DNA of 64,000 nucleotides from Aradus depressus (lineage: Eukaryota; Arthropoda; Insecta; Hemiptera; Aradidae): contig OY759222.1 in assembly GCA_963662175.1 (NCBI GenBank), positions 9,111,222 through 9,175,221 on the forward strand. The letters are read 5' to 3'. The notes beneath the pieces were generated by a model. It searched no databases. It was not told where the DNA came from and was given only the letters and a program-made list of their open reading frames with translations. Below, one piece after another: positions 14,298 to 59,243 of this stretch. Made by a program: the position numbers and the translations under genes. The first letter of the stretch is position 1; the number at the start of each line of letters is the position of its first letter.

Positions 14298-17200
14298 CTG
14301 AAAAATGATAAATAATGCTATTACAGAAAGTTGGCATTGGGTTTAAGACAATGAAAAGCAAGTTTTGAGTATTTTTAAAACTATCAGCCAAATAAAACTA
14401 AAATTAATTTTTTAAAATGAAACTAGCGAGTTACCGGGCGTTGCTCTAACGGACACCTCTAGATAGCGAATAATAAATAATCTATTAACGGACAAAATTT
14501 CTATGGTCCCGACAGCAGACCACTCAAATCAATGCTTAGTTTATGAGAACTGACATTATTGCAGAGATATTGTGAAATAATTCAAATGAACTTGAATGAA
14601 ATAAAACTCGTTTATTTGTGGTATTGTCTAATTTCACAGAAATATATACAAGGGAGTACTTTCGGTATTTCTACCATCCTCAGCCCTATATATAAGACTG
14701 TCTTATCTCTTATGCTTTTGGCTGAGGATGGTAAAAATACCGAAAGTACTCCCTTGTATATATATTCTGTGAAATTAGACAATACCACAAATAAACTAGT
14801 TTTATTTCATTCAAATGCTTATTTTACCTCCCTTAACGGACAACGGACAGCCTTAAACGGTCCCATGCAAAAAATCTACCTCCCGAAAGCGGTCAGCAGG
14901 CTCTTGGTTTCTTGGAACACAGTGAGGCACGTCTAGGGAGGAGTTCAGGGAAATGATTAAACAATAACAAATACGTTTTCTAAACTTCCCAATAATTATA
15001 GAATTTCCTTGTTTTGTTTTCTTTCGCATGATTTTATTCAGTTTGCTTCCACCATACCTCAAAACAGAACTCGGCTAACGCTCAAAAATAAAATAGAAGT
15101 AATTAAAGTTTATAATCGAGAAAAGCCCAGCGTCAGGGACTTAGCGGCAACGTTTAAGGCGGGAAAGACGCAGATCGCGACCATTTTAAAAGAAAATAAT
15201 GAACTTTTACTAAAACGGCAGGAACATGGAAATGAAGAAACCAAAACGGCTTTCACAAAAAAACACGGTAAGGGTTTTGAAATTGATCGCCATTGTTTCG
15301 AATGGTTTTGCCGAGTAAAAGCCAAAATTCTCCGTTTCTGGCTCTATGATACAGGAAAAGGCATCGGAAGTCGCCGAAATGTTGGGGATTTTAAATTTCA
15401 AAGCGTCAAATGGTTGGCTCGAAAAATGTAGAAAACGACATAATGATAAAGAACAAAAACGGTAGACCCGACAATGTTCTATTAATTTTACGCAGAATCG
15501 ACAGAAGGGAAAGAGGGAATTAGAAGTCAAAAACTCATATAACTGCCGTTGCAATGAACCTATTGACACAAAATTTCGTATGTAAATAAATTCAAAACCT
15601 CATAAGGACAACACCTATATAAGTCAACTATTAATTTTTAGGCTAAACGGTCGATTGGTTAAGGAGAGAGAGCAAAAACGTTAATAAGAAATTCGATCTG
15701 GTGAAGTACATTGTCGATGATTTGATTAATTTTTTTAGTAATCTGGAACTTTAATGTTAAGAGTCAGAAGGTTGGGATTAAACCGCACCTTATTCACCTG
15801 TCAGACAGCATTCATTGTTGATACATATGTTACCGCGGCAGATGTTTTAACAATGAGTATACTTTGGATGTGGTTTAAATATAACCAGGCTCAACAATTT
15901 TCAAGTTCTAACTTATAAAAGCACAGACATTTTACAAACAATTAAAATTCATAACGAGGAAAATCTTAGAGGATAAAACAAGACGGGAAATTGAAAAAAC
16001 ATATGATTCTTACCTTACATAATACTTCAACAGGTGTTGACATTTTCTTTTCACTGATTTTTTCATATTTCTGTTTCTTATTAGCTGCCTGAAAAAGAGA
16101 AACAATTTGAATTTTGGGACATGAGATCAGATCCTTAAATGTAACCATCCTTAGCTCGCTTGCATCCCTCTGACCGTAATGGTATTAGGAGAGTACAGCT
16201 TTGAGAAATGTTGAAGGTGTTATTTTTCATACCAGATTAGCAATAGTAGATAAACTTAGTACTAGTGTTATTTTCGGGACATATTTCTGAATAGAAAATT
16301 GTATAGAGATTGATTTTTGTAGGTCGACTTCACAGCAAGGGTAGAACATACAAGCGATGATCAAAAACTTCCAGGCGAGCCAACGGAGCGTTGGAGAGCG
16401 GTACGATTGGCATCATTAGTTGTTGTGACTCTTCCTGAGCTCAGCTGTTTTTGTAGAATTTCTATAACCTAATTTGTTGTGAAGTAACAGACGTTTTTGT
16501 TAAACACGGTTTTCGTGTTTGGCTATTTTGTGATGTTTTGTCAAATGAATCAATAAAAGCAAGGTGTGTGTCAAGTTTTGTGTGAAGTTAGGTAAAACGT
16601 TTACAGAAACTTTTGAGATGTTGCAAGAGGCTTTTGGGGATGAATGTCTGAGTCGATCACGGCGTCATGAGTGGTAGATGAGGTTCGAAGAAGGCCGGAT
16701 ATCGTCAGAAGACCATCCTCGTTCAGGACGCCCATCAACATCGACTGACGACGATTATGTTGCCAGAGTGGACGTTTTCGGGCATTCAAATCGTCGACCA
16801 TCCGTGAAATGACAGAGGAATGTAACATTTCATTTGGCTCATGTCAAGAAATTCAACTGAACAACTGGAGATGCGCCGAGTGGCGTCAATGTTTGTCCCG
16901 AGACTGCATCGCTCATTCGCGATTAATGCCCAAAAACGCCATGGCTGTCATCTCCCAGCCCTCGCACTCACCAGACCTGGCTCCTGCGGACTTTTTCCTG
17001 TTTTATAAACTCAACAGACCCTTAAAAAGACAGAGATTTCACTGATCTGACGAAATTAAAGAAAAATCGCCGGAGCTGAACAGCATTTCAGAAGATGAGT
17101 TTCAGGGTCCTTCCAGCAGTGGAAACGGCGGTGGGAAAAATGTACAGCTTCTCAAGAGGAGTACTTTGAGGGGACAAAGTCCAACTGGAACTTTTTGATC

Positions 17201-20200
17201 AGCCCTCGTATGTGCTTCGTGGGTGTACACCTTGTCTCTTTGACAGCCTTATTAGCATATCCTGTTCTCCATTTAGTTTCCTTTTATGTCTGCATTTGTT
17301 TTGACCCATTCGAAGTGTACTGAAAAATATTGAGTAACACCATAGGAGGTCCATAGAAATATATACTATGTAGGAGTCAAGGACAGTCCACCTGTGACAG
17401 ATGTGGAGAAGACAACTCCTGTGAGATTCCACATTATTGGTAAAGATATGATCATAGAGGAGGATTTTAGAAGATTGGACCACGGGAACATTCTCAGATT
17501 TGTTAAGGAATCTGGCAGACTGGGTCCTTCATGAAGGGCTTGGTTTTTGTTGTATAAACTACGTAACAAGGTAAGGTGGAAGCTTGGCGTTTCCAGGGAA
17601 TGAAAAAGATAAGAGCATTGGATGCTTAGATCCCTAGGTGCAAAGCACAAGCCCACCGTATATATTATTACGTCCATAGAAAAACAAAAATATAGCTGTC
17701 ATATATTTACCTTGAGGCCTTGCCAGGGGAGACTTCCACGATTGAAATACATCATCACGTATCCTAAGGACTCCATATCATCTCTTCGACTGAGAAAACA
17801 AATAAACATAGTAATAACAACAACAAAATCAGGCACTTGAATGTAAAATAATATTTAAATGAGATCCCAAGATATTGTTGGAAACAAATAATTTGGTTTA
17901 ATGATTTGAAAAATATGAGATGGCACTATGCCAGCCAATGTTCTCTGAATAGACAAAGGGTGAAAAGTGCATATTCCTAAACAAATCGGGCAATGACTTC
18001 TAAATGCAGCCAATGAATATTTAGGAAAAAAAACTATCTCAGAGGTTTTTTTTTTCAGAAGTTTCAGGAGATTTATTATATTTAATTTAATTTCCCCCAA
18101 TTTAAGTGATTTAAAAACGGATATTGGGTCGCAAGTGCTCGTTCCTGATCTATCTGAACTCTGTCTGGAATAGGGATGAGCATCCATGTTTGTCGTAAAA
18201 TGTAATATCTTAAAACACCTGCTCCGCTCAACGATTGGAATTAGACTGGCAATGGTAGGAACCTTTACCTGAGGTCTCCTCGCAACGGTCCCTCTCCTCG
18301 AACCCTACCCGGGAGCCCCCACAAGCGACAACAAACATCACTCTCATTACTTTAGCGACAGACCTCGTAAATGTTAAACAACTTCTTTGTTTTTATTTAT
18401 ATATCCAATATATCGACACAAATTGCAAAAATGTAATCGGACATACTAAAAAAATGCTACAGACTAAACTCAAAGAAGAAATCAGTTTACACAATAAATA
18501 GTAACCATGAAATGTTTATATGATTTGTTTATTACCTCTGTTCAATGCCCAAATGAGCATTAATAGAGGCATAACGAGCAGTGCCTGTCAGGTTCTTATC
18601 CTCTCTGTACGAGATGTGCATCCGGGTCCTCGAGTCACGGTACTTCTTGGCCAGTCCAAAGTCTATGAGATACAACTTGTTACAGTAGCGTCCAATTCCC
18701 ATGAGGAAATTGTCCGGCTTTATATCTCGATGGATGAATGACTTCGTATGGACAAATTCAATGAGTTTTATCATCTGATCAGCGAGCATCAAGACTGTTT
18801 TGATGGTGAATCGTCGTGAACAGAAGTTGAACAAGTCCTCTAGTGATGGTCCTAGCAGTTCCATCACTAGGACATTGTACTCGCGCTCTGTCCCGTACCA
18901 TCTGAAACAGGTTACAATATTAATGCACTTTCATAACATGAACATTTACAAAAAAAAACAAAAAAAAAAGTGCATCAGTAGCAACTTGCTACCTAGAACT
19001 ACCTCAAATGTCACTAGTTTTACTTATTTATTCACTAGTTAGTTATTATGACTCATGCCCGGGTTTTAACTACGAGGTCATATCGCTTAACGTCCCATTC
19101 GAAGGACGGCGTGCTTAAGTTTATCTTACCTCCCAGATAAAATAAACTAAGGGCCTCGGCCGGGTTTTGAACCCACGATCTTGAGCTCAGAAGGCAAGCG
19201 CGCATACCACTGAGCTACTGGCGGCCTCCTTTATTCACTAGTTATCAACAGAAACAACATGCGGCAATACAAAATCGCGTGAAATATAGCTTAATTTTCT
19301 AACGCTATTGTATCGAAGTGTTAAGAGGGAGGGGAAGAGATTTTCAACCTTTTTTTTTTCTCCCCTCTTATGACACTTTTGAGCAGAGGAAAATTGAGAG
19401 GTTTTTTAATATAATGATAAAACTAATGATAATTTAAATAAATGTAAATTTCATTATTAATTATTATTAATAGATATGAATAATAAGACAACTAAAGGGT
19501 CGAATAATAGTAAATAGTTAATCAAAAATAATATTAATCAGTTATTGTGACTCATGCCCGGGCATTAACTATGAGGCCATATCGCCTACTAGCCGAGCGC
19601 ACTTTTATCGAACTGGTGGACATGAGCCCGACTCTACTGTGGGAGTCCTAAATTTTACCTATTTAGGTTTGTTTACCCAGGTTAGGGGTCATTAATGAGT
19701 GTCTAATATAGTCCAGGTTCGGGACCATCGTTTAAATTGCCATCCGAAGGACGGCGTGCTCCAGGTTTTTTTCACTTTCTAGATAAAAAAAACTAAAGGG
19801 CCTTGGCCGAGTTTCGAATCAGCGATCTTGAGCACAGTAACAAGCACATCTTTGAGCTTATACACATATTACAAAAAATTATTTTATGTATGACTTTCAT
19901 TCAAAATTTCTTATATGCTTCACCTTCTTTTTGTCTGAAAATCATATACATACCTATATATAAAACGTTCTACTTTTTATAAGGGCCGTGCTTTTCCCGT
20001 ATATCAACTTTTTTTTATTAAAAATTAAATTTTCTCCAAAATATTTCAGTTTGTCGACAACAGTCAGAGCCACACTGGAGATATATGAGATTGAAAGTGT
20101 TATTTGTTGCTATTTTATTAATTTTTCTACGTTGCACCAATTGCTGTAGTTATTAACGACGGGCCATTTACAGGTAGGCCACCACTATTCACAACAAACT

Positions 20201-23200
20201 TTCTCTTTTTCTCGCTATTGAACTGAGAGACGTGCGAGTGGCGGTCAATATATAAAACAAAAGAAGGACAGTACAATATTGGAGATTGTCCAATACAGTA
20301 TGACGTTCTATATTGTCAATGACTTTCTCTGCTGGCGCCATCTTCTCTTCAATGGCCCCCACGACCAACTTCTCAATTACAGGGCTCAACTAGCACAAAG
20401 GATTGGCACACTGTCAAACTTTATTGACTGTCTGCTCACCCGAATAATTATGAATTATTAGAAGTCTCATCAAATAGCCTGTCAAGATCAACTATAGAAG
20501 TGAGGCAACATTAGTAGAGTGGATTATTATAGTCAAATGTAAATAAACAAAAAAAGTCGTCTGTAAATTGTACTTTCCCTTTCTATCTAGCCCATTTGGC
20601 TGATAAAGAAAAGGTAACACAAAAGCTGTTATAACTGACGTTGTAATGAATGTATTGACACCATAAGACGACAGCTATTAATTCTAAGCTGAATTGGCAG
20701 AAGGCGAAGGGGGGGGCTCTATTCAAAAATCCAATTAACTGCTGATGTAATGAATGTATCGACAAAAGCATTTATATTTATATTCAAAACCCCATAAGGA
20801 CATTACATATTAATTTTGGCTAGGATTTAAACGCATAATAAAAAAAAAAAAGCAGCTTACCAAGTAAGAAAGGTTAACTACACAGTACAAAATGATAAAT
20901 GCACAGTAAAATGCAACACTGTAAATACAATTTTAACCCAATAACTAAAAATGTATTGCCCTAGTAAGTTAATCCAATAACACGGTTAATAAGGCTCAAT
21001 AGGGAATTTCAGAACACTCGGCAAACAATTTGAATGTCGATTAAAAAAGAATGAAATACTAAGATTTAAAATGCACAGTACAAAATTGCAGTTTACCGAG
21101 TAAATCCAGTTGATGTATCCCAAGAAATAAAATGTTGACCCTCCCGTCGGCTCCATGGGGGAGCATAAAAAAATATCTAAGACTTTTTACTCTGCCTTTA
21201 TTTTTTTTACTATTCGTTAATATATCCTTTTAACTGGGCGTTTATTTTGTTTACCAAACGTTAAATATTATTCTACTAGCATTTAATTTATTTACTGTTT
21301 TTATATACTTCTTACCATGAGTTTTTTTTTTTTACAATTCGTTTACTGGTTCAACAGTGTTATAAATTTATTACTCTGAATTTTTTTTTTTTTTGGCCTT
21401 ACGTTCGATGCATATTAGCCATGGCACTGTGTTATCTAATTATTTACGACATCCATGGCCCCGGGAGGGAGGTTCTATCTACGAAACGGACGGGATTCGA
21501 ACCCGCAAACCATGGTGAGACCATTCGACCAAAGCCCTACGCTCTAACCCGCACGGCCACCATGGCTTTGGATCATTTCTGTAGTAGTTACTCTGAATTT
21601 AATGTTGTAAATGTTGATTTACATATGTTAATTTCCTAACTATGAATAATATGTTTTCTACTGAACTTTAATTACTATGTACAACTTTTTGCTACTGAGC
21701 ATATAATTTTCATCGATTGCGAGATGTACCACGATCTACAGTAGTCTGTGAGATAAACATAGACAAGCAGATCCCATTTATTACGTGTCTCTCTAAATAA
21801 TGTTCATGGTGTTGCGGTTAACCTAGGCTGCTATAAATACAGAGAAGAGCCCCAAAGTGACCTCGCCGGAGACTCACCTTCTCTGTCGACAACACTATGT
21901 ATCTATTGTCAAACAGTAGGAAGGCTAAACAGAGACGAAATGCGGGCCGCAACTCAATATGCAACAGAGCGACCCGAAATATATTAACATTGGCTAACCA
22001 GAACAGGATTGTTACTGTTGCTAATTCTGGTTAAAATATCTCGAATCTGAAACATCAAGTACAATTGGACCCAGCGAACTGTAAAGAACGCGAACTATAA
22101 TTAGACACCATAATAATAGAGTTATCAAATGAAACAAAAGGGTTTATAAGTTAGGTTAGATTTTATGATTCATGCCAGGGCTTTAACTTCGAGGTCATAT
22201 CGCCTACTACCAGAGCGCTCTTTCGTCACTCTGGTGGACATGAGCCCGACTCTACTATGGGAGTACTAAATTTTTATTCACCTAGGGTAGGGATCTTTAG
22301 CGAGTACCTGACATCCTACTGGCTCGGGAGCATCGCATAACGTCCCATCCGAAGGATGGCATGCTTAAGTTTATTTTACCTCCCAGATAAAATAAATTAA
22401 GGGGCCTCGGTCGGGTTTCGAACCCACGTTCTTGAGCTCAGAAGTCAAGCACGCATACCACTGAGCTACCGGCACACAGTGTGAAATTAATGAGTTTTGA
22501 TTTTGAAAAAATTCGAGCCCCCATTCAATTTTCGATCAATTTGGATGAAACTAGGTGCAAAATATTTGTGAAAGCTGGCTTTTTATCAGGTAACTGCGGG
22601 TTTAACAATCAAGGTATTATATGCCAATTGACAGCTGCCAAAACCCCGCGAAATTTTTTAAAAAATTTAATTTTGTTTGTATATGTTTTTGTTAATTGAT
22701 TTTTACAACTTACATGAATGTTTTTTGGGTCGCTGATTACGAATTCAATATTTATTTTAGCCAAAAGTGGTCCTAATGTTGTCATTTTGGCCTAAAGTGG
22801 TCCAAATTCAATATATTTTTGCCACTGGCATATAATACCTTGATTGTAAAACCTGCAGTTATCTGATAAAAAGCCAGCTTTCACAAACATGTTGCACCTA
22901 GTTTCATCCAAATTGATCAAAAATTGAGCGGAGGCTCGAATTTTGAAAATTAAAACTAGAAAATTTCACACTGTGCGGCGCCCTCTAAAAGGGTTTATAT
23001 ATATTTTTTTCAAATTATTGATCCATAGCCAGTTTATTAATTATATATAATTTTTGGGTTGTGTAAGGAGATTCTGAATATATATTTTTTCAAAGCTACA
23101 ATTCTCCAAATTATTTTTTGTTTTTTAGTATCTAAAATTGTTTTTCATACTATTAATACTCGTATACCCAACACCATAAGAAGTTCAACAACAATTCATT

Positions 23201-26200: not shown

Positions 26201-29200
26201 AAGGCTCAGTGGGAAAATTCAGAACACTGAGGTAAAAAATTTAAATCACAGGATGTCAAATATAAGATAGTCTGACCTCTCACAGATTTTTATTGGTAGT
26301 ATTAGCTAGCCGGCTTTCGAGGTTTCCCTCATCATCAGGCAGTCTGATAAAAAATTAAAAATTTTGAAAGAACTAAATAATATAATAAAAATAAATAACA
26401 ATCTAAAACATTAACAATTTAAAATATCATGGATGGGGACAGACGAGTTATCCCTGTCCACCATCTGAGTCACAACTGGGAGAACGGTGTCCCACAATAA
26501 AAATCTGTGAGAGGTCAGACTATCTTATATTTGACATCCTGTGAAATAATCACTTCTCACTACATCAGCCATCTTCATATTAAAAAATTTAAATGTCCAG
26601 TAAAAAAATTTAAAGACTAAGATTTAAAATGCACAGTATAAAATTGCAGTTTACTGAGTAATTCCAGTTGATCTATCCGAAGACCCTCCCGTCGGTCCTT
26701 TTAGAGAAACAGTCCAGGTTGTTATAATGTAGAGAAACCCCATGGGGGAGCATAAAAAAAAATCTATTGCGAACAGGCTAATTTATTTACTGTGAATATA
26801 TCCTTTTTATTCTGCTTCTATTCGTTAAATATTTTTATACTAATATTTAATTTATTTACTATGAATCTATCCTTTTTACTATTCGTTTACTTTTTTAACC
26901 GTGTTATAAATTTATTACTCTGAATTAAATCTTTTGAATGTGAATTAATTTTGTTACTGTGAATAATGTTTTCTACTGAACTTTAATTACTGTGCATTTA
27001 ATTTTCATCGTTTAAATAGGCTAGGATTAAAACAGTAAAAAAAAGCGGCTAACCTAGTAAGAAAGGTTAATTACACAGCACAAAATGATAAATGCACAGT
27101 AAAATGCAACACTGTAAATAAAATTTCAGCCCAAAAACTAAAAATGTATTGCCTAGTAAGTTAATCCAATAACACGGTTAATAAGGAGCAGTAAGAAATT
27201 TCAGTATACTCGGTACAAATTTGAATGCCCAGTAATTTTCAGTTCAAAATTACTGAAAACTGGAAGAAATGGAGTGTACTTGGAAGGAGGTATGTAATGT
27301 TTTCTCAGTTGCTACTGATCCTACGCGGAAAATTTACAGTTATATTAATTTTGAACATTTTCGATTTAGGGGAAAAGAGAGAGGGCAGTGAGGTGTATAG
27401 TGGGACAAAGGGTAGCATAAACTGTTTATTCTGTCCGGATATCGCACGTAATCAGCTTCAGCTAAAATGGTATACGCAATGTTACTCCCGGATAACCTGT
27501 TACTATTTATATTCATTGTTTATCAATATTCAGCCTTGAGTCGATGGTCATTTTTCACCTAATCAGAGAGATACGGTAACCATTTTAAGAGCCCTTCCTT
27601 ATACGTACAGGACTTTATCCCTAACTTTAACGTAAAAAATATAACTGCTGGGAATAAAAATGTTTAAAAAATATATTATAAAAAGAATATAATAATAATT
27701 GGAAATTTCTGTTTATTCTCTTCTCTCTGGTGATAAAAAAAAATGCGGCGGTGACCGCACCCTCTCCAAAACCAGTAGACCGTTTGTGCTAATATTCAAC
27801 AGTAGATTAACAAAGGTGCTTCTAAAACTTCACACTAAGTTGTGTGTCGATAAATTCATCAATTCGGAAGTTTTAGGGTTTTTGAATTGAGCACCTCCCC
27901 CCCTTCCCTTCGGCCGATATCGCTGAAGTTTGACAGGTTATGTCCTCATTGCGTTTTGAAATTTCATGTCGATTCATTCATTAAATCGGCAGTTACTACG
28001 GATTTAAGTTGAGTCCCCTCCCCTTCTGCCGATTCCGTTGCAAATTGATGTGATTTCGAATTCACATATGAAATTTTTATGTTTTATATCACATACGATA
28101 TATTCACTACAACGGCAGCTACTAGAGTTTTTTGTTTCTAGCCTCTCCCTTCTTCTTTGGCTGAAAATTCATGGGGTTTTGGTTACACATGAAGCTGCGT
28201 TCACACTAGCGAAACTCCCTCGCGCGAAATAATTTCGCGAGGGAATAGCGCTAGTGTAGACGTGCCCCCACCCCTGAGTAATTGCGGGGTAAGGGCCCTC
28301 GTTGCGAGCCGGACCTCAGTCGGTTTTTGTCAGCGCATCAAAGGGTTTCGCATGTCGAGTTTCGCTTAGTGTAAACGTGGTCGCCGTACAACAGTGCTTG
28401 CAGCTCATCGAGTTCTACAAAAATAGAGATTTTATGTGGAATCCAAAAAACAGAACTGAAGGCGGCTCGTCCTACTCGCGCAATTTTTCACTCTGAATTG
28501 CGCTCTGTTTTGAGCAGTGCGAAATTTCACTCGAAGCGAGTAACTTTCGCTAGTGTAAACGCAGCTTAAGAGTTTGTGTCGATACATTCATTTTATCAGC
28601 GTTTATTAGAGCTTTTATGTTAAGCCTCCCCCTTCCCTTCGGTCGATTTGGCTGAAAAACAATAGGATTCGTCGTTAGAGTGTTCTGAACTCATTCACAC
28701 ATACAGATCCACAAAATTGTTTTTTTTTTCATGTTTGGAGTCTAGAGGTTGAAAACATGAAATTCCGTTGAAAACTCATCATCAAATTTTTGACAAATTA
28801 AATAACTTCTCCAATACTTTGTAAAGCTGGAGAAGTAAATTGCCAGAAAGTACGTATACTTTGACAATATTGTTACTAGGCACAAAATAAGCTGTGGATC
28901 GCGCATATTTCCAAAACAGCTGAACCGATCAATAGGTTAACAGTAACGAAACAATGGCGAAAAAAAATCCATATCGATGAATTTTTTCAAAAATTATCGT
29001 TAACAAAAGAAAATTGCATGAAATTTCACAAAACCTCTGATCTGATTAGCACCAAAATCAACAGACCTGGTGTCCTCACTGAGATATTTTCCAAAAAGAA
29101 AGATTCATATCGTGGCATTTTTTTTTTGTAGATGTTATCTTGGAAGAAATAAAAGAAGTTCCAGAGACAAAAAAAACACATTGATGAGTTCTATGGAAAA

Positions 29201-34066: not shown

Positions 34067-37000
34067 CTGAGAACAGAAAAACAAAAACAAAATTGAAACA
34101 GATTTAAACAGAGCTGGGAACAGTGTTCTTTTATTTTATATTTGTTTCTACATTCCAGAGTCTAGGAAATTTTACTGTTGAATTTTGTGACCTACACAGT
34201 TTCAATGTTATACCCGGCGCAGTTCTCAAGATGTATAATTTAATATTTTTCCGCATGTATAAGGGAAGTAATGTAATTTAATGTTGAGTTTCCACCATGT
34301 TTTTCAGCCCCTGAATGAAATATTCCAAAACATATATATATAAAAAATCATTAATGAATCACCGGCTATGTACTTCCCCAGCAAAAATTAATCAATTACT
34401 ACAAATAATTAGAAGTGGGGATGTACACTGCTCATGATTCTCCGACTTTTGTAGATAAGATAACAGATTAGTGCACTATTGTCTTGAACGTACCCACTAA
34501 GTCTAGACGTCCTCGCACAACATTCCTCTTGTACCTCTCACTAGGAAGCCTGTCAAGAAATATCTCAAAGGTTGAATGATTCTCAGGAATACTGAAAAAA
34601 AAAGTTATGTTAAAAAAATAAGCGAATTGTCATAGAATTCGAACTTGTAAGTCTCCTTGTGACTTAATAAATAATCCACACTACAGTGAGGAACCATTGA
34701 TTTGCTATTTATTTCTAATAGTACACACGTAATGCCTCGGTCAGGCCAAAAGAAAACTTGGAGAAAGATAAATGTGAGAAGAAAACAGACAACTGTCTAT
34801 AGGTTAAGTTAGGTTATGATTTATTAGGTATGACTCATGCCCGTGCTTTAACTACGAGGTCATATCGCCTACTACCAAAGCGCTCTTTCGTCACTCTGGT
34901 GGACATGAACCAGACTCTACTGTGGGAGTCCTAAATTTTGTCTACCCTAAATTTTTATTTACCTAGGGCAGGGATCTTTAACGAGTACCTGACATCGTAC
35001 AAGCTCGGGACCATCGCTTAATGTCCCATCCGTAGGACGGCGTGCTTAAGTTTATTTTTAAGTTTATTTTACCTCCCAGACAAAATAAACTAAGGGCCTC
35101 GGTCGGGTTTCGAACCCACGATATTGAGCTCAGAAGACAAGCACGCATACCACTGAGCTACCGGCGCCCTCGACATTATAATAACTTAAGAACCTAAAGA
35201 AAACTACTTTTAAACACAAAACATTAACCATGAATTTTGTATTCCCCTCATCATAAAATGAAAATAAAGTAAAATAAACAGAGCTGACTATTGGCTGATG
35301 AAGGAAATGATATTGTTTTCTGGGTCCTCACAGCTGGGCAGACAGTCGCAGATGAGGCCATCCTTCTTGCTCCAGGTTGTCTTCTGGACCGACAAGCTGT
35401 CATAGTGATTGTAGAGGCACATCAGACCGTTCATATCGCACCATTCCCATGGTTCTGTCAACAGAAATACACAATACATTAAAAAAAAAAAAAGGAACAC
35501 ATTTTTCGATATGTCATGTAATAAACGAAACGTTATTTGATTACTATCCGTATACTAAAAAACCTATTAATTATTATTTTCCAGGTTTTTGAATTAAAAC
35601 TTCTATGATATCCTTATTCAGTTTTCTCGCTTTCTCGTCTTCATTTTTGAAGTTTTGTTTATATCGATTTCTACAGCAAGAAAACCTTACTTCTAAATTG
35701 AAGAATACTTTTCTATGGTGGAGATAGGATTTCCTTGATTTGAGAGCAGTTGTAACTTGAATAGTGAAAGATGGTTGATCAAACATCATTGGCCTTATTG
35801 TTTCCCAAATTTATTTATTTTATATATATGACGTTTCATCCATTCGGGAATTTTCAAAACTATAAACAGCAATTTAATGAGTTATAGATAACTGGCCATA
35901 GTAATTTATAATTACACATACTGATGAAAATTTACTTATCTTCTTTTTTTCAGTGTTTGAATATTTATCATATGTCAGTCATAATATAAGGTAGTTATTG
36001 TGACTTAAGCCCGGGCTTTAATGTGGGCGTTCTATATTTTGCCTACCTAGGTTTATTTACCCAACGTAAGGGTCTCTAAGAAGTACCTGACATCATACAG
36101 ACTAGGGATTACAGCTCAAAATCCCAGAAGGGTGTGCTCAAGGTTTTTTTTTTACCTTTCAGATTAAAAAAAAGCCTAAGGGCCTCGGCCTGGTTTCGAA
36201 CTGCGATCTTGAGCTTATTAGGTTAGCACGCTACTTCTGAGCTACTGGCGCCCTCTTTTAGAGTAAGAATAACTTGTAGCGGTATTATCACTATTAAACA
36301 CTTCCCCAATAATAATTTATGGTTTCCAGATTTACTTTGTGAAGCTCCATTCTAGGAATAGATAATTAAAATGCACAATTTCTTTGTCAAACTTCACTAT
36401 ATATTCTCAAATACTCAACTAGTTTCGCCGTGTTAAGGCATTATCAAGAGTCACTTACAAACTGACAGAATTGGTTGACAGGGTAGAGGGTACAGTTAAG
36501 GAGGGGGTTTTTAGGTAATGACGGGGAATCCCTTGTTTTTGTTACTCTATACATTCCAATAAACAGATATTTACAAGATAATAATAAATATAAAATAAAA
36601 AGAAGAAAGAAAATGATATATATATAAAATCTAATAGAGCGAATCTAACAGTAAAGTGTTGGTATTTATATAGGTATGACTCATGAATTATATAAATGTA
36701 ACATATAATAAATATTAAAGTGAATAAAAACAAATACAAAGAATTTAAAGGCAAATTAAAACATCAAATGAAAATTATAGTATTCTCTGAATGTCAGTTG
36801 GCAAAACATTTCCACAATCATCAGACTCTTAGCTACTTGATATTTAAATTAAGAACTGAAATAGAGAACGAACAGAACAACATAAACTTTCTAGACCTAA
36901 CAATAACAAGACAAGACAATTCCTTCCTATTTAACATATACAGAAAAGACACTTACACGGACGCCATAATCCCCAATGACTCTTACGCCCCGGAATCTCA

Positions 37001-40000
37001 CAAATATGCATACTTCAAGTCCATGATACATAGATGCTTCTCATTGCCTCTAACGAACACAAACAAAAAACAAGAAATAGCCAAATTAAAGCAAATTGCA
37101 GCCGGCAATAACTTTAATACCAATATAATAGACAAACTAATATCTAGTAAATTAAAACAGATAACTTATCATAATATCTACCCTAAACCACAAACAGAAA
37201 AATGTAATTATTACTCTATCCCTTACACTGGTAGATTATCCCAAATAATAAAAAAGAAATTAAGTAAGCATAACTTGAATCCAGCCTTCAAATCCAACCC
37301 CAATCTGGGTAGAATATTATTTAATTCAAAAGAAAAAATAGATTTAATGGATAAATGTGGAGTGTATCAATTGGAATGCCCAGAATGTAATGCCAAATAC
37401 GCGGGACAGACAGGGAGATCCTTTAAGATTAGATACAGGGAACACACAAGAAATACAAACTCCAACACTTCCTCATTTCACCAACATCTCACAGAAACAG
37501 GACATACCATAGACACACAACACAAACCAAATATAATACATATCTGCCAAAAAGGTCCACTTTTGAATTTACTGGAAGCGGTAGAAATAAATAAACTGAA
37601 CAAAAATAACGATATTATAATGCTAAATGAACAAATAGAACTGAACCATTCCCCCCTTCTTAATTTAAATATCAAGTAGCTAAGAGTCTGATGATTGTGG
37701 AAATGTTTTGCCAACTGACATTCAGAGAATACTATAATTTTCATTTGATGTTTTAATTTGCCTTTAAATTCTTTGTATTTGTTTTTATTCACTTTAATAT
37801 TTATTATATGTTACATTTATATAATTCATGAGTCATACCTATATAAATACCAACACTTTACTGTTAGATTCGCTCTATTAGATTTTATATATATATATCA
37901 TTTTCTTTCTTCTTTTTATTTTATATTTATTATTATCTTGTAAATATCTGTTTATTGGAATGTATAGAGTAACAAAAACAAGGGATTCCCCGTCATTACC
38001 TAAAAACCCCCTCCTTAACTGTACCCTCTACCCTGTCAACCAATTCTGTCAGTTTGTAAGTGACTCTTGATAATGCCTTAACACGGCGAAACTAGTTGAG
38101 TATTTGAGAATATATAGTGAAGTTTGACAAAGAAATTGTGCATTTTAATTATCTATTCCCCAATAATGTTTATTCCCCCCAAAAATATATATATATATAT
38201 ATAAAGAAAATAGCCGAAAATAATAATTAACCATAAAAAGAATTGAAAGATAGGTTAAAACTAATAGTCATATAAATAAATTAGAAAAACATAAAAAACG
38301 CAGGCTGTATCCGGGACGCAGCCGCAGTGGGATACGTGAAACGTCTTGTGCGTGCTGCAGACGGAGTATGGGCACTAGGGTACAGAAATGACGTAACCAG
38401 ATACACAATGTATCGAAAGCGGGTGCGCCATAGCCGAGCAACCGTCAAATTTCTGCAACAAATTACACATTTGTAAGCCTATAACTCCTGAAGAGCACCG
38501 GTTTGAGTTCGATGGATTATACCAACTATGGCAGAGTGAGACCACTCCCGCTCGGATCGACAAACTTACTGCCGAGCTACGTCTCTGTAAACGCCGCACG
38601 CGAGGCCAAATTTAGCTCCGATTGCGTCATGCGTGGTGCGACAACGGTTACATGTTTTCATTACATGCGATTTTAGCAAGTGACCCTCTACTGACAGAAA
38701 TGAAAGACGTTTCACGTCAAAACATATAGTTTCTAATATAACTGGGCCAGACTGACATATTATAGGAAAATATCAGAAAAAATAGGTACGTTTTGAGAAA
38801 AGAAGGATATAATCTTGGTTTTTAAACTATCAACCCCATAAGCCAGTGCTTAGATAGAGGTAAGAAATTGAAATTGAGAACAAAAGTGGAGTACAGTCTA
38901 TAGTGCGCGACGTGCAACCAATTATATATTGGACAGACTGGCCGACTTTCTAAAGACAGAATTAAAGAACATACGACTGAAATAAGGAACCGTGGCAACC
39001 GGTCAACTTTCACGACTCACAGCAGAGACATTTATGACCCAACCGAAGGCACCGAATACCTCCATTCGTTAATTACCAACTTCGTTTTTTGAAATATTGT
39101 CTCTTCCACAAGAAATGTATACACAACTATATATACGTTACGGCATTACACCATGAAGACAAGTTTGCTGAGAGCGAATCATTTATATAGGTACATCAGG
39201 TAAGTAAGAAATAGGAAATCCCAGTGTATTTACAGTTTGGAATTTCAGAACAAACAAATTCTTAACTGTAAAACCAAGGGGAATTCCTAGTTCAAATTCC
39301 AACCCATTCCTTACTTAGCTATCTTTACATATAAGAATCGCACTCAAGAAACGGTAGTTTATATATAATATTTTGGTGTAATATACAATATTTCAAAAAT
39401 AAGTTTGTTTTATTTATTTATTACAAGTTTCCACAATATATCCGCGTTTTCAACTGTTGAATAAAATAAAATGATAGATAAAACAATTTTTTGAACACTT
39501 ATATTGTCTAATTCCACAAACATATACTTAAATGTGTACCGGTTTCGGCTTACTCATTCAATGAACGGGTCACTCACGGGTCACTCATTCAATGAAACAA
39601 CCGGCATAAAATACCTCCACTTATCTGAAAAAAGGTAGGCCATTAGATTCTCTAGAGCAGCTAGAAATTAATAGGACTCGAAAAAAATGTTTAAACGACC
39701 AGACACACTTCAAATTTTCTCCTTTATTAATTTCTTTCAGATAACAAATATCCATGGCAATATTAATCTAGGTTAAATAATATTTTAATTTTATTTTCTT
39801 GGTTTTCAAATAAGTGCACAGTTAGCTATTACAGTTAGAATATAGACTTCTACCACCCTGGTTTTACCAGAGGAAGGGGACCCTTTCACCTCAGGTCCTC
39901 TTAGGTTAATATAAATATGTATGCCTGGCAAATATCTGAATTATTGTTGAACATTGTGCTGACGATGGCGTAAGCCGAAACCGGTACACATTTAAGTATA

Positions 40001-49420: not shown

Positions 49421-50750
49421 AGTTTAAGGGAATTGTTAATCAACAATAGAATGAAACGCTGGTTTTGTTTAGTTATTATCAGTGCTGGTTTCTGGAAAAA
49501 TGTATACCTTTCATGCCATTTCGACAATAGGTTAGGTTAGGTTTCATGACTCATGCCCGGGCTTTAACTACGAGGTCATATCGCCTACTACCAGAGCGCT
49601 CTTTCGTCACTCTGGTGGACATGAGCCCGACTCTACTATGGGAGTCCTGAATTTTGCTTACCCTAAATTTTTATTCACCTAGGGTAGGGGTCTTTAACGA
49701 GTACCTGACATCGTACAGGCTCGGGACCATCGCTTAACGCCCCATCCGAAGGCGTGCTTAAGTTTATTTTACCTCCCAGATAAAATAAACTAAGGGCCTC
49801 GGTCGAGTTTCGAACCCACGATCTTGAGCTCAGAAGACAATCACGCATACCACTGAGCTACCGGCACCCTCATTTCGACAATATATAATAAATATATTTA
49901 GTTATTGTGACTCAAGCCCGGGCTTTAACTACGAGGTCATATCACCTACCACCAGAGCCTAACTCTACTGTGGAAGTCCTAAATTTTGCCTGGTTTAGAT
50001 ATCTGAGGTTAACGAGTAGCTGACATTGTACAGGCTCGGGACCATCGCTTAACGTTCCATCTTTAGGACAGGAAGAAAAGTTTTTCTCATGCCAGATAAG
50101 AAAGCTAAGGGCCTCGGCCGGGATTTGAACACGCGATTTTGAGTTCAGTGGACATGCTACCTTTGAGCTACTGGTGCCTTCATATTAAAGCATTACTTAT
50201 ACCGTTTATTTGTCAAAAAATAGCAATTACAAACGTTTCGGGAAGCACTCCCATCATCAGTACCTATAATATGTGTGTTATTTTTCTTAACTTTCTATCA
50301 ATCAGAATATTCCTTTTATAGAACATATTATTGTGACTAATACTCAGGCTTTAACTTCCAGGTTATATCGCTTACTACCAGAGCGCACTTTCATCGCTCT
50401 GGTGGACCTGAGTCCGACTCTAAAATAAGAGTCCTAAATTATTATTCACCTAGGATAGGCGACTTTAACGATGCGGTTTCGAACCCGCGATCTTGAGCTC
50501 AATAAACAAGCATGCTATCATCTTGAGCTCATTAAGCAAGTACGCATACCACTGAGCTACCGGCAGGCTCCAACATTGAGTAGAACAAGTACCTTTCTGA
50601 CCAATGTCTTCCATCTTCTGCAATAAACTTCAATCCATGAACAGTGGAATTGGAGAAGTAGTTTCTACATGAGAACAAAAGGATTCTGAACAGCTTCATG
50701 ATTTGCTGAATCTGAGCGGGCTTTCTTCTTACGTTTTGCTTCAAAATTAC
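33858..50750 (-). CDS. DEG/ENaC sodium channel, Nach/pickpocket-like, whole coding span (10 exons)
   Basis: Exons: 50750-50593, 47597-47403, 44747-44600, 43431-43301, 42017-41921, 40897-40712, 40370-40271, 35454-35289, 34591-34494, 34066-33858. All junctions keep phase, giving 1488 nt including the stop. The likely start is the ATG at 50699-50697, giving about 478 aa; upstream codons in exon 1 stay open, so an earlier start exon cannot be excluded. It is an amiloride-type cation channel subunit of the plasma membrane. It shows the N-terminal HG gating motif (VHGLKFI, residues 21-22), TM1 in exon 2, a Cys-rich extracellular domain (NCC, CVVEC, LCNC, CDCLPSCED), RYKRNVVRG before TM2, the GAS selectivity filter, and FVEILYFF in TM2. 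This is an arthropod-expanded family, active in osmoregulation, mechanosensation or chemosensation. Introns are loaded with transposons. Confidence 0.95.
34494..34591 (-). CDS. DEG/ENaC exon 9
   Basis: 98 nt, acceptor TTTTTTTCAG, donor GTGG|GTACGT. It encodes FEIFLDRLPSERYKRNVVRG and LDL, the segment leading into TM2. Confidence 0.94.
34823..35172 (-). mobile_element. SINE-A full-length, in DEG/ENaC intron 8
   Basis: Head (TAGCTCAGTGGTATGCGTGC on - strand), body with a small AAGTTTATTTTT duplication, and tail merging into TAGGTTAAGTTAGGTTATG. Confidence 0.92.
35289..35454 (-). CDS. DEG/ENaC exon 8
   Basis: 166 nt, acceptor TTGACAG. It encodes PWEWCDMNGLMCLYNHYD and LICDCLPSCED, the C.C.PSC motif. 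The donor TA|GTCAGC is weak, but the phase fits both neighbours. Confidence 0.92.
35993..36255 (-). mobile_element. SINE-A, diverged subfamily
   Basis: Carries the CTAGGTTTATTTACCCAACG variant and GTGTGCTCAAGG junction shared with the 19.5-kb copy. The head is degenerate. Confidence 0.8.
36355..38158. mobile_element. Penelope-like element bracketed by ~490-bp inverted repeats
   Basis: Arms 36355-36849 and 37672-38158 are near-perfect reverse complements. The central ORF is Penelope-like. Each arm holds a hammerhead-like core (36412-36454 on -, 38061-38102 on +): GATAA-T-GCC-loop-GGC-GAAA-CTAGT. It sits in DEG/ENaC intron 7. Confidence 0.93.
36720..37679 (+). CDS. Penelope-like RT C-terminus with GIY-YIG endonuclease
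   Basis: A 319-codon open frame. After ~43 codons read from the left inverted-repeat arm it shows NNINFLDLTITRQDNSFLFN (end of the RT domain), KAYFKSMIHR-like PLE linker sequence, then GVYQLECPECNAKYAGQTGR and YREHTRN, a GIY-YIG nuclease with its Cys-rich lead-in. The catalytic RT half (YVDD-type motif) is absent, so the copy is truncated and not autonomous by itself. It lies on the strand opposite to the host channel gene. Confidence 0.9.
   Translation: MNKNKYKEFKGKLKHQMKIIVFSECQLAKHFHNHQTLSYLIFKLRTEIENEQNNINFLDLTITRQDNSFLFNIYRKDTYTDAIIPNDSYAPESHKYAYFKSMIHRCFSLPLTNTNKKQEIAKLKQIAAGNNFNTNIIDKLISSKLKQITYHNIYPKPQTEKCNYYSIPYTGRLSQIIKKKLSKHNLNPAFKSNPNLGRILFNSKEKIDLMDKCGVYQLECPECNAKYAGQTGRSFKIRYREHTRNTNSNTSSFHQHLTETGHTIDTQHKPNIIHICQKGPLLNLLEAVEINKLNKNNDIIMLNEQIELNHSPLLNLNIK
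38780..39110 (+). mobile_element. Penelope-like GIY-YIG fragment (second family)
   Basis: Broken frames: LRKEGYNLGF, then CATCNQLYIGQTGRLSKDRI, KEHTTEIRNRG, RSTFTTHSRD. The protein sequence clearly differs from the element at 36.7 kb. Confidence 0.85.
39455..40075. mobile_element. Penelope-derived inverted-repeat element, hammerhead-like family 4
   Basis: Arms about 39461-39550 and 39966-40045. The right arm has an intact hammerhead-like core at 39954-39990 (TGTG-CTGACGA-T-GGC-GTAA-GCC-GAAA-CCGGTA-CACA). The interior at 39600-39745 codes in broken frame for LDSLEQLEINRTRKKCLND, a PLE C-terminal end. Confidence 0.85.
40058..40456. repeat. inverted repeat flanking DEG/ENaC exon 7
   Basis: Arms 40058-40113 and 40401-40456 are ~90% complementary (shared TTAGTATTTCCACTATATC and CGCAAAAAATGTATTCGGAC). 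Exon 7 (40271-40370) lies inside. Confidence 0.9.
40271..40370 (-). CDS. DEG/ENaC exon 7 (CxxxC..CxC block)
   Basis: 100 nt, acceptor GATTCCAG, donor TCAC|GTGAGT. It encodes YSYSGCVVECRR followed by RLCNCTPHLMPKS, the diagnostic CxxxCR...LCxC motif. It is too short to show as an open frame and was found by phase and family expectation. It sits between the arms of an inverted repeat. Confidence 0.93.
40470..40610 (+). mobile_element. Penelope-like C-terminal fragment
   Basis: KGRQLDFLKELEINRTRKNE, same domain end as in 39600-39745. Confidence 0.75.
40712..40897 (-). CDS. DEG/ENaC exon 6
   Basis: 62 codons, phase 0 both sides. It encodes VYLHSEAEVPFYN at its start and HQRQCRFSHENYLQ at its end, equivalent to the QRKCRF block. 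Acceptor TTGCCATAG, donor CAG|GTATCT. Confidence 0.94.
41111..41580. mobile_element. MITE with 79-bp perfect or near-perfect TIRs
   Basis: TIR 41111-41189 versus 41502-41580, starting ACGGGTAAAGTTAGATTAAC and ending GCTTGGTTAAAGT. 470 bp in all, in DEG/ENaC intron 5. No transposase. Confidence 0.95.
41921..42017 (-). CDS. DEG/ENaC exon 5
   Basis: 97 nt, acceptor TTCACAG, donor AAG|GTAAAT. It encodes KLPYLSLISNRKTKLGSLTL, matching the family's LP..SN..TG.GSL region. Phases fit exons 4 and 6. Confidence 0.9.
42240..42830 (+). repeat. 145-bp-period dispersed repeat, head plus ~3.5 tandem units
   Basis: Begins with the hairpin end CCCAGCTATACGAAGTATAGG, then units starting near 42365, 42508, 42648 and 42788, each TAATAACTGC...AATGAATG...ATAAGGACAACA. 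The most complete copy in the window. Confidence 0.85.
43301..43431 (-). CDS. DEG/ENaC exon 4 (NCC motif)
   Basis: 131 nt. It encodes VRSGCTDIFSNCYWRG, then FNCCEHF and ETELGVCFTF, the finger/beta-ball cysteine block. The correct acceptor is the AAAG after a long T tract. The TTAG five bases further in would break the phase. Confidence 0.94.
43533..43808 (+). mobile_element. SINE-A, head-truncated
   Basis: Body from GGCCCTAGGTTATTTTATCT to the tail CATGAGTCATAATAACTAAC. Confidence 0.88.
43885..44060 (+). mobile_element. Penelope-like GIY-YIG fragment, degenerate
   Basis: Nucleotide similarity to 38.94-39.06 kb (ACTTAAGGAACATACGATTG, ACAACCGAAGGCATC). Confidence 0.6.
44600..44747 (-). CDS. 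DEG/ENaC exon 3
   Basis: 148 nt, acceptor GTTTCAG, donor CAGA|GTAAGT. It encodes an extracellular segment with YFRGTAYYMKEFC, the family's Phe-Arg-Gly-like block, and ends in SDR in phase 0. Confidence 0.93.
44870..45262 (-). mobile_element. non-LTR retrotransposon C-terminal remnant
   Basis: LTQHGYSLITERLKYYQ then, after a frameshift, NCSCGGIETAELVVLECPLY, a zinc-binding tail typical of R1/Jockey-type ORF2. Confidence 0.7.
45748..46640. repeat. 178-bp minisatellite in DEG/ENaC intron 2
   Basis: About four near-identical units of 178 bp (one unit per 45891, 46069, 46247, 46425) with degenerate half-units at both edges. Each unit is itself built of ~30-bp subrepeats around CCGCGTGGTA. GC-rich in an AT-rich region. 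The 62-codon open frames within are by-products, since 178 is not a multiple of three. Confidence 0.95.
46745..47078 (+). mobile_element. hAT transposase C-terminal remnant
   Basis: LLIEFAMCCPGTNAAVERVF corresponds to the hAT dimerisation block (SNA.VERxFS). The rest is degenerate. Confidence 0.7.
47403..47597 (-). CDS. DEG/ENaC exon 2 (TM1)
   Basis: 195 nt, acceptor TTTGTTTCAG, donor CAACA|GTAAGT. It encodes the hydrophobic TM1 (FLWIGLCLLSWVGSALLI) followed by TSFPSISVCEEDNMARVYEA, the usual post-TM1 FPSISVC block of the family. Confidence 0.95.
47600..49380. other. DEG/ENaC intron 1, nothing recognised
   Basis: AT-rich with many homopolymer runs. No coding exon or known repeat seen. Confidence 0.5.
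49385..49421 (+). repeat. poly(G) tract
   Basis: About 37 bp of G broken by one or two A. A strong G-quadruplex former and a likely place for assembly length error. Confidence 0.95.
49530..49870 (-). mobile_element. SINE-A full-length, 13-bp target duplication
   Basis: Flanked by CATTTCGACAATA at 49517-49529 and 49871-49883. The tail is GGTTAGGTTAGGTTT on the + strand. One of the best-preserved copies. Confidence 0.96.
49899..50180 (-). mobile_element. SINE-A, diverged subfamily
   Basis: Shortened body, recognisable head (GAGCTACTGG) and tail (AGTTATTGTGACTCAAGCCC). Confidence 0.8.
50205..50329 (-). mobile_element. half of a family-1 hammerhead-like element
   Basis: The best helix II of family 1: CTGATGA-T-GGGA-loop-TCCC-GAAA at 50230-50262 on the - strand. 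The partner arm is missing, apparently replaced by the SINE that follows. Confidence 0.7.
50330..50569 (-). mobile_element. SINE-A with duplicated head segment
   Basis: The segment ATCTTGAGCTCA..AAGCA occurs twice in tandem in the tRNA head. It ends 24 bp from the donor of DEG/ENaC exon 1. Confidence 0.85.
50593..50750 (-). CDS. DEG/ENaC exon 1 (HG motif)
   Basis: 158 nt. It encodes the cytosolic N terminus with NYFSNSTVHGLKFIAEDGRH. The ATG at 50699 is the first good start. An acceptor-like TTGCAG at 50751-50752 means the exon may begin there, with more N terminus upstream. Donor AAAG|GTACTT. A SINE ends 24 bp downstream of the donor. Confidence 0.88.
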
Positions 50751-52690: not shown

Positions 52691-52697
52691 TCTCCAT

Positions 52698-55854: not shown

Positions 55855-56519
55855 GGTATATTATACAGGGTAGTCCAGATAAGCGGACCACAAGTGAAAT
55901 AACTCCTAAACGGTTAGAGATATCAAAATTGTGCATAGGACTAAAGTTGTAGCACTCGCCGAGAGCTATAATATGACGTCCTCTAAAATACATAAATGAC
56001 CCTTTTAATGGCTCAAACAGCCCTTCGAAGGGCGGGATTCCCTTTTGACCCTTAAGTTTCATTACATTTCATTAAAGTACTAAAGTAACAAGGAAGAACT
56101 GTGCAAACAGATTTTTGATACGTCAAGTAGTTCTCGGAAAAAAAACGTTTAAAGTTTCACGTTTTTCTTATTTTGAAGTTACATAGTTGGAATTTAATAA
56201 CTTCAGAATAAGAAAAATGTGCAACTTTAAACGTTTTTTTTCCAAGAACTACTTGACGTATCAAAAATCTGTTTGCACAGTTATTCCTTGTTTCTTTAGT
56301 AATTTAATAAAATGTAATGAAACTTAAGGGTCAAAAGGGAACCCCGCCCTTCGAAGGGCTATTTGAGCCATTGAAAGGGTCATTTATGTCTTTTCAAGGA
56401 CTCCATACTATAGCTCTCGGCGAGTGCTACAACTTTAGTACTATGCATAATTTTGATATCTCTAACCGTTTAGGAGTTATTTCACTTGTGGCCCGCTTAT
56501 CTGGGCCACCCTATATAAT
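55855..56519. mobile_element. long fold-back MITE, ~300-bp arms
   Basis: Arms 55855-56165 and about 56205-56519, over 90% complementary, ends GGGTGGCCCAGATAAGCGG (right, inverted) and GGGTAGTCCAGATAAGCGG (left), TATA-rich flanks. The same open frame (MKLKGQKG...) appears in both arms and is not a gene. Confidence 0.93.
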
Positions 56520-56774: not shown

Positions 56775-56895
56775 TAACGAGCATTCATATCGCTTCTTCT
56801 ACAAAGTGCAGGAGATGTTATGTAATAAGTCAGAAATTTGATACTCGAGTTTCCAACTGAATTTCATTTTTTCCGACCTCCTGATTCCAAAAATG
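56775..56895 (+). repeat. 145-bp-period repeat, hairpin-end fragment
   Basis: CAGGAGATGTTATGTAATAA, CCGACCTCCTGATTCC as in the other heads. Confidence 0.6.
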
Positions 56896-56899
56896 ACTG

Positions 56900-57980: not shown

Positions 57981-57984
57981 TTTT

Positions 57985-58432
57985 AAAAATATAATATATT
58001 TATTACAACATCACTTCTCCCAATTATTTTTTTACTTTATAAAAAATAGCAATTACAGACTTTTTGGGCAGTATTCCCATGATCAGTTTCTATAATTTAT
58101 CTGTTGTTTTGTTAACACTTTTTCTGTCAATCAGTATCTTCCATTTATAGATAATATTTATTGAGTTGACCTCGATATTCAAACACCAAGTCTAAACTTC
58201 AGTTCGTTTGAATATACGAGTAGAGGTCAACTCAATAAATATGTTCTATACAATAAAGATTCTGATTGACAGAAAACATTTTAACATAAAGAACAGATAA
58301 ATTATAGATACTGATGATGGGAGTGCTTCTCGAAACGTTTGTAATCGCTTGATTTTAAAAAGCAAAAAAAAAATAATTGGGAAACTTGATGCTGTACGAA
58401 ATATATTATATATGAATTCAGAATCTCCTCAC
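57985..58432. mobile_element. fold-back element, hammerhead-like family 1
   Basis: ~200-bp arms around a centre near 58205. The right arm carries an intact hammerhead-like core (58311-58346, + strand); the left one is decayed (58045-58090, - strand). Confidence 0.88.
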
Positions 58433-58484
58433 ACAATCTAAAATATATATATTTTTTTTATTTCTATCCGATCTTAGATTCTTA

Positions 58485-58948
58485 CTTGTCCAGTTATACG
58501 ATGTATAGGGGAAGTTATGTAATCGGTCAGAAATTCAATGAGGAGTTTTGAACAGAATTTTATGTTTTCCGACTTCTAGTCTGAATGTCTGTAAACATGA
58601 TATTTCCCGATAGAAAGAATATATCAACATGAAATTTAATATGTGAATCCAGAAACCTCTATTGACGATAACTATTGTTCTTTAGCGAAATCAGGGGGAG
58701 GCTTAACTCAAAAACTTTAATAACTCCTTTTTAAAGAATGCATCGACACACAATTTTATTTGTGAATTCAAAACCCTATAATTATGACACTTATTATTGT
58801 ACAGCGGAATTGGTTAAAGTATCGACATGAAATTTTATATTTATAGTGAAAATCCAATGAGGACGTAAGCTGTAAAATTTCAGCGATATCGGCTGAAGGG
58901 GAGGGGGTTAAATTCAAAAACCGTAATAATTATAGATGTAATGAATTT
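58485..58948 (+). repeat. 145-bp-period dispersed repeat with hairpin head
   Basis: Head CCAGTTATACGATGTATAGG, then about three units. Continues at 59244-59350 after the inserted palindrome. Confidence 0.8.
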
Positions 58949-59243
58949 GGACTTGAAAATAAAATAAAACTGGTTTATTTAATATGTTGTCTAATTTCAC
59001 TAACTATATATACATGGGAGTACTTTCGGTATTTCTACCATCCTCAGCCAAAAGCATAAGAGATAAGACTCTTAAGTCTCTTATCTCTTATGCTTTTGGC
59101 TGAGGATGGTAGAAATACCGAAAGTACTCCCATGTATATATAGTTAGTGAAATTAGACAACATATTAAATAAACCAGTTTTATTTTATTTTCAAGTCCAT
59201 TTGAATTATTTCACAATATCTCTGCAATTATGTCAGTTTTCAT
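58949..59243. mobile_element. near-perfect palindromic element, hammerhead-like family 2, 12-bp target duplication
   Basis: Arms of about 130 bp around 59070 (AGACTCTTAAGTCT). Hammerhead-like cores at 59014-59049 (-) and 59097-59133 (+) with helix II GGTA/TACC closed by GAAA. Flanked by TGTAATGAATTT at 58937-58948 and 59244-59255, inside the 145-bp-period repeat. Confidence 0.93.

Follow-up and report, generated by a model that had tools for sequence, protein, structure and literature searches.

Are the short motifs carried by inverted-repeat (fold-back) elements in the genome of the hemipteran Aradus depressus ribozymes, and to which kind of element do they belong? The question is raised by a stretch of 64,000 nt (contig OY759222.1, positions 9,111,222 to 9,175,221; hereafter the window), in which a preliminary description had pointed out dispersed fold-backs with cores similar to that of the hammerhead ribozyme. 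Our analysis points to Penelope-like retrotransposons (PLEs). Wherever a family could be traced, its cores lie in PLE pseudo-long terminal repeats (pseudo-LTRs) and are very probably self-cleaving type I hammerheads, predicted to cut as dimers via a palindromic helix III, the fold-backs being a likely by-product of insertion.

The window has a G+C content of 35.6%. A pattern search of it returned 11 matches, as compared with 1.04 expected. The core order CTGANGA-T-helix II-GAA-palindrome was found at ten sites (the complete cores of families A to D, Table 1), which are ten of the 11 CTGANGA sites followed by a helix II of at least 3 bp and GAAA. Under the full structural rule, which includes a base other than G after the palindrome, the window gave ten matches with an extra U in the core and none without it, and 200 dinucleotide shuffles of the window, taken together, gave none with and three without the extra U. 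Counting the two arms of family E, which carry a U3-A8 variant of the core, 12 hammerhead-like cores are present in 64 kb. The structural scan covered the window, with its ten matches, and 200 kb of further sequence (20 ten-kb stretches spaced along contigs C1 to C3), where 13 matches were found, ten of them palindromic. The helix II sequences, the palindromes and the short helix I pairs (TGG/CCA, TGTG/CACA, ACTC/GAGT) read as the preliminary description gave them. Its statement that each arm carries a core was too broad for several elements: one core is present at 26.3 kb, the left arm at 39.5 kb breaks off within its core, solitary copies stand at 6.0 and 50.2 kb, and decay, judged by eye, has affected the left arms at 9.8 and 58.1 kb. 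A 129-bp tandem repeat (59828-61580) has a unit that holds CTGATGA and CGAAAGAGAGCTCTG and has a 42-bp stretch in common with a dispersed repeat of ~340 bp. As a ribozyme candidate, this repeat (59.8-61.6 kb) was rejected; it contains CTGATGA and CGAAA, with no pairing helix II and a G after its palindrome, and the resemblance was judged to be chance.

For a comparison between families, one representative was taken from each of ten families, five from the window and five from other parts of the genome, which comprises 697.7 Mb in 74 contigs. Representatives were those met by the scan, which required GAAA; pairing of helix II and a palindrome with a starting A (an ending U follows) belonged to the rule of selection, and non-palindromic matches (three of 13 in the C1 to C3 stretches) and further copies of each family were left out. 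The ten families are not fully independent: D is probably related to H and A to A′, and F has its helix I in common with G. Helix I, which was not a criterion of the scan, pairs at 29 of 30 positions, as compared with a mean of 13.3 when strands were re-dealt, and none of 20,000 re-deals reached 29. Pairing is thus kept while the bases change, and the covariation noted in the preliminary description is indeed present.

N7 was occupied by all four bases among the ten families. N17 was A, C or U in every family and never G in 20 palindromic matches (window plus C1 to C3 stretches), which agrees with the non-G base previously seen after the palindrome. Seven different palindromes occurred, with a length of 4-8 nt in all ten families, the representatives having been chosen for palindromes. 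Exactly one base lies between A9 and helix II in ten of ten, a place where type I hammerheads have one or two bases at most. The CUGANGA/GAA core was retained letter for letter in eight of the ten representatives; the remaining two are family E, with a compensated U3-A8, and family A′ (L047), with a lone C3U, unlike the A′-type copies in the genome-wide list, which carry CTGAAGA. By hammerhead numbering, the constant and the free positions are those of the hammerhead. The core and the CUGAnGA consensus of hammerheads are also found in PMC10085705. Cofolding predicted a double hammerhead for the dimer of family E, with helices I and III formed between the strands, and likewise for A′; mixed or other folds were obtained for the remaining families. 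The best reading, as had been proposed, is that of type I hammerheads whose helix III is minimal and palindromic, predicted to act as dimers; helix I covariation, N7 and N17 support it.

In the hammerhead fold, C3 pairs with G8. The CTGANGA core, attributed in the preliminary description to all named families, was confirmed at the ten window sites and not in the arms at 36.4 and 38.1 kb, which read UUGAUAA (TTGATAA, i.e. C3U plus G8A) followed by U and GCC/GGC. Both bases have changed there, and the 3-8 pair is kept as U-A. A genome search for family E in which positions 3 and 8 were left free gave 2,691 matches (control, 0), and all 100 matches listed were U3-A8; a second helix II form, GCCC-GAAAU-GGGC, was present at two places among these 100. 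U3-A8 as a new natural core is ruled out by Perreault et al. 2011 (PMC3088659), where natural covariation of C3/G8 to U3/A8 is described. Family E resembles those hammerheads in this respect and differs from them as one retrotransposon-borne form with 2,691 matches in one genome. In PAc, a Poseidon PLE of Anolis carolinensis, the hammerhead regains part of its activity when C3G is combined with G8C (PMC11167929).

Genome-wide, CTGANGATN12GAAA (the 4-4-4 form) gave 20,022 matches, as compared with 204 for a reversed-pattern control; when position 10 was any base but T, there were 2,501 matches (control, 1,006). From these ratios, U is the usual extra base; several of the non-U matches listed look like chance or other repeats. 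A wider pattern, YTGANRATN10GAAA, yielded 10,419 matches (control, 3,175). Pattern counts for repeats may be lower bounds. The preliminary description had ascribed the extra U to every copy, which holds for all 12 window cores; elsewhere in the genome, one hammerhead-like family (L032:463) has A at position 10 and consequently no AUG. In nine of ten families, A9-U10-G10.1 is an AUG, and the frame that it opens closes within 2-16 codons, after two in D, E, F and H. As the start of a long PLE frame this AUG was rejected, since family E reads ATG CCT TAA and an 814-codon frame begins downstream. Conceivably, a core that doubles as a translation start would keep the extra U, the ribosome melting the ribozyme and stopping at once. 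Self-cutting would thereby be in competition with translation, and the RNA of the element would toggle between messenger and cut unit. We consider such a switch quite improbable because families D and H seem to be related, A+T-rich DNA is prone to early stops, and the observation was made post hoc. The extra U is the least explained part of our finding. An extra core nucleotide in a viroid hammerhead was reportedly the subject of work by De la Pena and Flores in 2001, which weakens the novelty of the extra base. Core insertions treated in PMC10085705 also weaken its standing as a new feature. Short core insertions, U3-A8 cores and minimal PLE hammerheads are already in print.

The cores of families E and A lie in pseudo-LTRs beside PLE coding sequence; for family D this location is seen less firmly. 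The frame at 36.7 kb had 33 homologues, of which 20 contained RVT_1 and four GIY-YIG (precomputed domains). Outside the window, a unit (L051) that is 99.5% identical to the window copy of E over 1,276 bp contains an 814-codon frame with matches to RVT_1 (E = 2 × 10−14) and GIY-YIG (E = 0.0018) and has a core at each end; this frame also matches RdRP_1 at 20 bits, under the cut-off of that domain. The distance from the predicted cut to the first Met of this reverse transcriptase (RT)/endonuclease frame is 66 nt, which places the core in the leader. At another locus (L044), an A-type core adjoins an RT frame. On contig C1, copies of family E follow one another in a tandem array, L051 being one of its units, with core-to-core spacings of 2,912 to 2,927 nt (one core per 2.9 kb); four RT frames 2,852 nt apart on contig C7 constitute a second tandem array. 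In a genome search with one homologue, in which 79 of 5,468 candidates were scored, at least six stop-free rows of 814 residues and at least five of 839 were found. We read the traced families as predicted pseudo-LTR ribozymes of PLEs, a point absent from the preliminary description. The kind is already published (PMC6155905, PMC11167929); what the genome adds is a rich new example, not a new class.

How, then, did the fold-backs arise? Four A elements follow one plan, with two head-to-head pseudo-LTR arms and a ~45-nt tail on one arm only. Target-site duplications were found for A2 (TGTAATGAATTT, 12 nt, at 58937 and 59244), for fold-back C (TAAAAAATTTAAAT, 14 nt, at 26233 and 26581), for insertion E (TTCCCCAATAAT, 12 nt, at 36302 and 38156, with a 44-nt tail on the left arm only), for A1 (AATGCTTA at 14531 and 14814, 8 nt exact or 12 nt with one mismatch), and at two further genome loci (L002, 14 nt; L029, 8 nt). 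As a chance control, two random 41-nt windows shared at least 10 nt in three of 300 trials and at least 8 nt in 14 of 300. The flanks of B (58 kb) and D shared strings of 8 nt at most, which were not counted as duplications. An inverted partner was present at four of six further loci (L033, L036, L049, and L050). Neighbouring cores no more than 3 kb apart were head to head in 27 of 32 pairs for family E and 24 of 29 for the 4-4-4 form, and tail to tail in 0 and 2, respectively, among the first 100 matches listed per search, which all lie on contig C1 and include a repeated block below 1 Mb. Without this block, the head-to-head pairs among the matches listed were 19 of 24 and 16 of 21. Between 85000 and 750000 of contig C1, the same core types recur every ~64-82 kb among the first matches listed, which suggests a large repeated block.

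The fold-back shape is a likely by-product of PLE insertion architecture, not the mark of a separate element class. During insertion, the PLE enzyme would prime reverse transcription on both target strands, and the two copies would converge and join head to head; copying from both strands with a join in the middle would explain the palindromes. For the palindromes of rotifer PLEs, self-priming is the reading preferred in PMC3846280, and it may also account for those found here. As to cleavage, helix III is a bare palindrome, and one molecule would therefore close it poorly. Two cores, in the same tandem transcript or in two transcripts, would pair via helices I and III, and each paired strand would be cut after N17. 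The most likely outcome would be the release of a unit-length RNA whose 5′-OH end lies immediately ahead of the reading frame. In a tandem transcript, both cores would be present on one molecule. Because transcripts of near-perfect palindromes would fold on themselves, cutting is more likely to take place in tandem or separate transcripts.

The same motif could be a conserved DNA or RNA hairpin that does not cleave and has another task, for example to be bound by the PLE protein or to form the end structure of a transposon. Consistent with this, the PAc protein may bind its own RNA close to this position (PMC11167929). However, the invariant letters match those of the hammerhead and the variable position is N7, pairing in helix I across the core varies with compensation, and the 3-8 contact is kept as U-A in 100 of the 100 family E matches listed; we give a non-cleaving hairpin a very slim chance. 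The fold-backs might alternatively be DNA transposons of the foldback or miniature inverted-repeat transposable element (MITE) type whose ends resemble hammerheads by chance, and their near-perfect inverted repeats between target-site duplications would fit. Yet the arms are unequal in length and at their inner ends, only one of them is tailed, the duplications vary between 8 and 14 nt, and the arms of E enclose PLE coding sequence, so that we rejected a foldback transposon as extremely improbable. Another possibility, compatible with the favoured PLE origin, is that the majority of copies are dead and that this genome no longer makes use of the ribozyme. Truncation or decay is seen in several window cores, and PAc insertion in vitro needs no cleavage (PMC11167929), whereas open RT/endonuclease frames, tandem arrays and the 99.5% identical window copy suggest recent activity; we regard general decay as unlikely.

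Several results weigh against dimer-cutting hammerheads of PLEs. Helix II pairs at 30 of 30 positions in the ten families (re-dealt mean, 22.0), a count which is not independent, pairing being part of the selection rule. When helix II was checked without selection for pairing, nine of 20 distinct N12 types paired fully (first 100 matches listed, 4-4-4 search), and some of the remaining 11 are decayed copies or chance. The helix I pairing of family C amounts to just 2 bp. Rfam hammerhead models gave no match in the window at E-values up to 10, where the scan returned mainly microRNA-type hairpin matches; the extra base and the absent helix III loop may be the cause. An Rfam search of the genome found no hammerhead either, but control genomes likewise gave no match. 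The GIY-YIG matches of the window frame (19.5 bits) and of L051 (18.9 bits) are under the Pfam cut-off of 22.6 bits, and in the stretches read no PLE frame could be assigned to families B, C, F, G, H, or I. Given the chance rate of 14 in 300, the 8-nt duplications (A1 and L029) are weak, and two loci (L028 and L044) displayed no inverted partner in the stretch tested. The transcript of the A2 palindrome has a predicted hairpin with a minimum free energy of -200.1 kcal/mol, which would bury the core; near-perfect palindromic copies such as A2 are probably not the working form. Finally, in the PAc study, the hammerhead did not cut without protein, core mutants left insertion in vitro unchanged, and no RNA sequencing reads began or ended at the cut site (PMC11167929).

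That the predicted ribozymes belong with the minimal hammerheads of PLEs is supported by their core, their helices, the shortness of helix III and their place in PLEs. Such minimal type I forms were reportedly described in PLEs by Cervera and de la Pena in 2014 and by Lunse, Weinberg and Breaker in 2017, and small PLE-linked variants are said, in the title of the latter work, to act as dimers. The cores described here share with these the minimal type I core in a pseudo-LTR, with little or no helix III; they differ, the 2014 and 2017 papers being compared by their titles, in the U between A9 and helix II in most matches, in a palindromic helix III of 4 to 8 nt, and in the presence of ten helix I/II combinations in one genome. 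According to PMC6155905, all available PLE sequences display hammerhead motifs, usually minimal and without helix III. The PAc element (PMC11167929) is alike in its RT and GIY-YIG domains, the hammerhead at the start of the reading frame, the tail and the tandem repeats. Its enzyme cuts and extends both target strands, a step that we propose here as well, and its tail is the interval between the two RT start sites. In contrast to our elements, the long frame of PAc begins at stem II; here, the AUG of stem II opens 2-16 codons only, and in one intact unit (L051) the long frame starts downstream of the core.

Other systems resemble the window elements in part. PLEs of the rotifer Adineta vaga (PMC3846280) likewise have inverted pseudo-LTRs with a tail on one of them, 8-10 bp target-site duplications, and palindromes at the inverted junction in head-to-head order, whereas the words 'hammerhead' and 'ribozyme' occur 0 times in the text of that article. 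Metazoan retrozymes (PMC7229834) also have type I hammerheads spread by retroelements. They consist of small units repeated in tandem, with canonical hammerheads and contacts between loops I and II, whereas the window elements are pairs of PLE pseudo-LTRs. A retrozyme was accordingly rejected: there are no small tandem repeats, the pairs are head to head, and the tandem units measure 2.9 kb and have an RT frame. One genome thus holds ten helix I/II solutions around one core, ~20,000 matches to the commonest layout, and intact retrotransposons together with tandem arrays. This is natural material for asking what PLE hammerheads do, a question left by the PAc study, and for testing the effect of the extra base at position 10 and of the U3-A8 pair on cleavage, with cores of a sort that Rfam hammerhead models miss in the window.

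Table 1. Hammerhead-like cores and predicted PLE features of the window
Feature	Position	Strand	Remarks
PLE fold-back A1, inverted head-to-head pseudo-LTRs	14543..14813	.	~45-nt tail, left arm only
Core, A1 left arm (CTGAGGA-T-GGTA/TACC-GAA-AGTACT-C)	14654..14683	-	structural scan
Core, A1 right arm (loop AAAA)	14722..14751	+	structural scan
PLE fold-back A2, arms 98.4% alike over 252 bp	58949..59243	.	tail, right arm only
Core, A2 left arm	59018..59047	-	structural scan
Core, A2 right arm	59100..59129	+	structural scan, family comparison
Core, family B, single copy	6036..6064	-	structural scan
Core, family B, helix II with G-U pairs; decayed left partner arm near 9.84 kb	9998..10026	+	
Core, family B (GGGA/TCCC, ACGT), single copy	50232..50260	-	structural scan, family comparison
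Core, family B, within inverted repeat 57989-58411 with decayed left core	58311..58339	+	
Fold-back C, one core; right arm is only a 50-bp inverted copy of the outer end	26247..26580	.	
Core, family C (GAGG/CCTC, AGCCGGCT)	26307..26338	-	structural scan, family comparison
PLE insertion E: inverted 3′ end, then 5′-truncated PLE (RT C-terminus and GIY-YIG), then pseudo-LTR	36314..38155	+	
Core, family E, U3-A8 variant (TTGATAA-T-GCC/GGC-GAA-ACTAGT-T)	36417..36447	-	
5′-truncated PLE coding sequence (end of RT and GIY-YIG endonuclease)	36856..37679	+	
Core, family E, U3-A8 variant	38067..38097	+	structural scan, family comparison
Second PLE remnant, GIY-YIG fragment	38892..39029	+	domain search
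Truncated family D core, in inverted arm 39458-39553	39538..39549	-	
Likely PLE C-terminal coding remnant upstream of family D core	39628..39729	+	weak, E = 0.079
Core, family D (GGC/GCC, ACCGGT)	39959..39986	+	structural scan, family comparison
Weak PLE C-terminal match near family D	40462-40539		E = 0.076

The window also contains repeats and coding sequences of other kinds. An inverted repeat of 660 bp (55860-56519, 91.5%) gave microRNA-type Rfam matches, and one of 86 bp (41104-41189 and 41502-41587) has arms 98.8% identical; the scan found no hammerhead core in either. The dispersed repeat of ~340 bp, SINE-like (short interspersed nuclear element) by size, was found at 6089-6430, 22155-22475, 34829-35171, 49536-49871, 62606-62944, and other places, and a 178-bp tandem repeat at 45836-46595 has units 97-99% alike. 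An apparently intronless frame of 491 residues (1343-2815) encodes an ALG6/ALG8-type glucosyltransferase; its three best hits are 56-57% identical, and among named sources the nearest are heteropteran bugs (Cimex, Nesidiocoris, and Apolygus). An open frame with a CENP-B_N DNA-binding domain (14961-15431) is probably a transposase remnant, and a piece of a protein kinase domain lies on the minus strand at 18535-18930.

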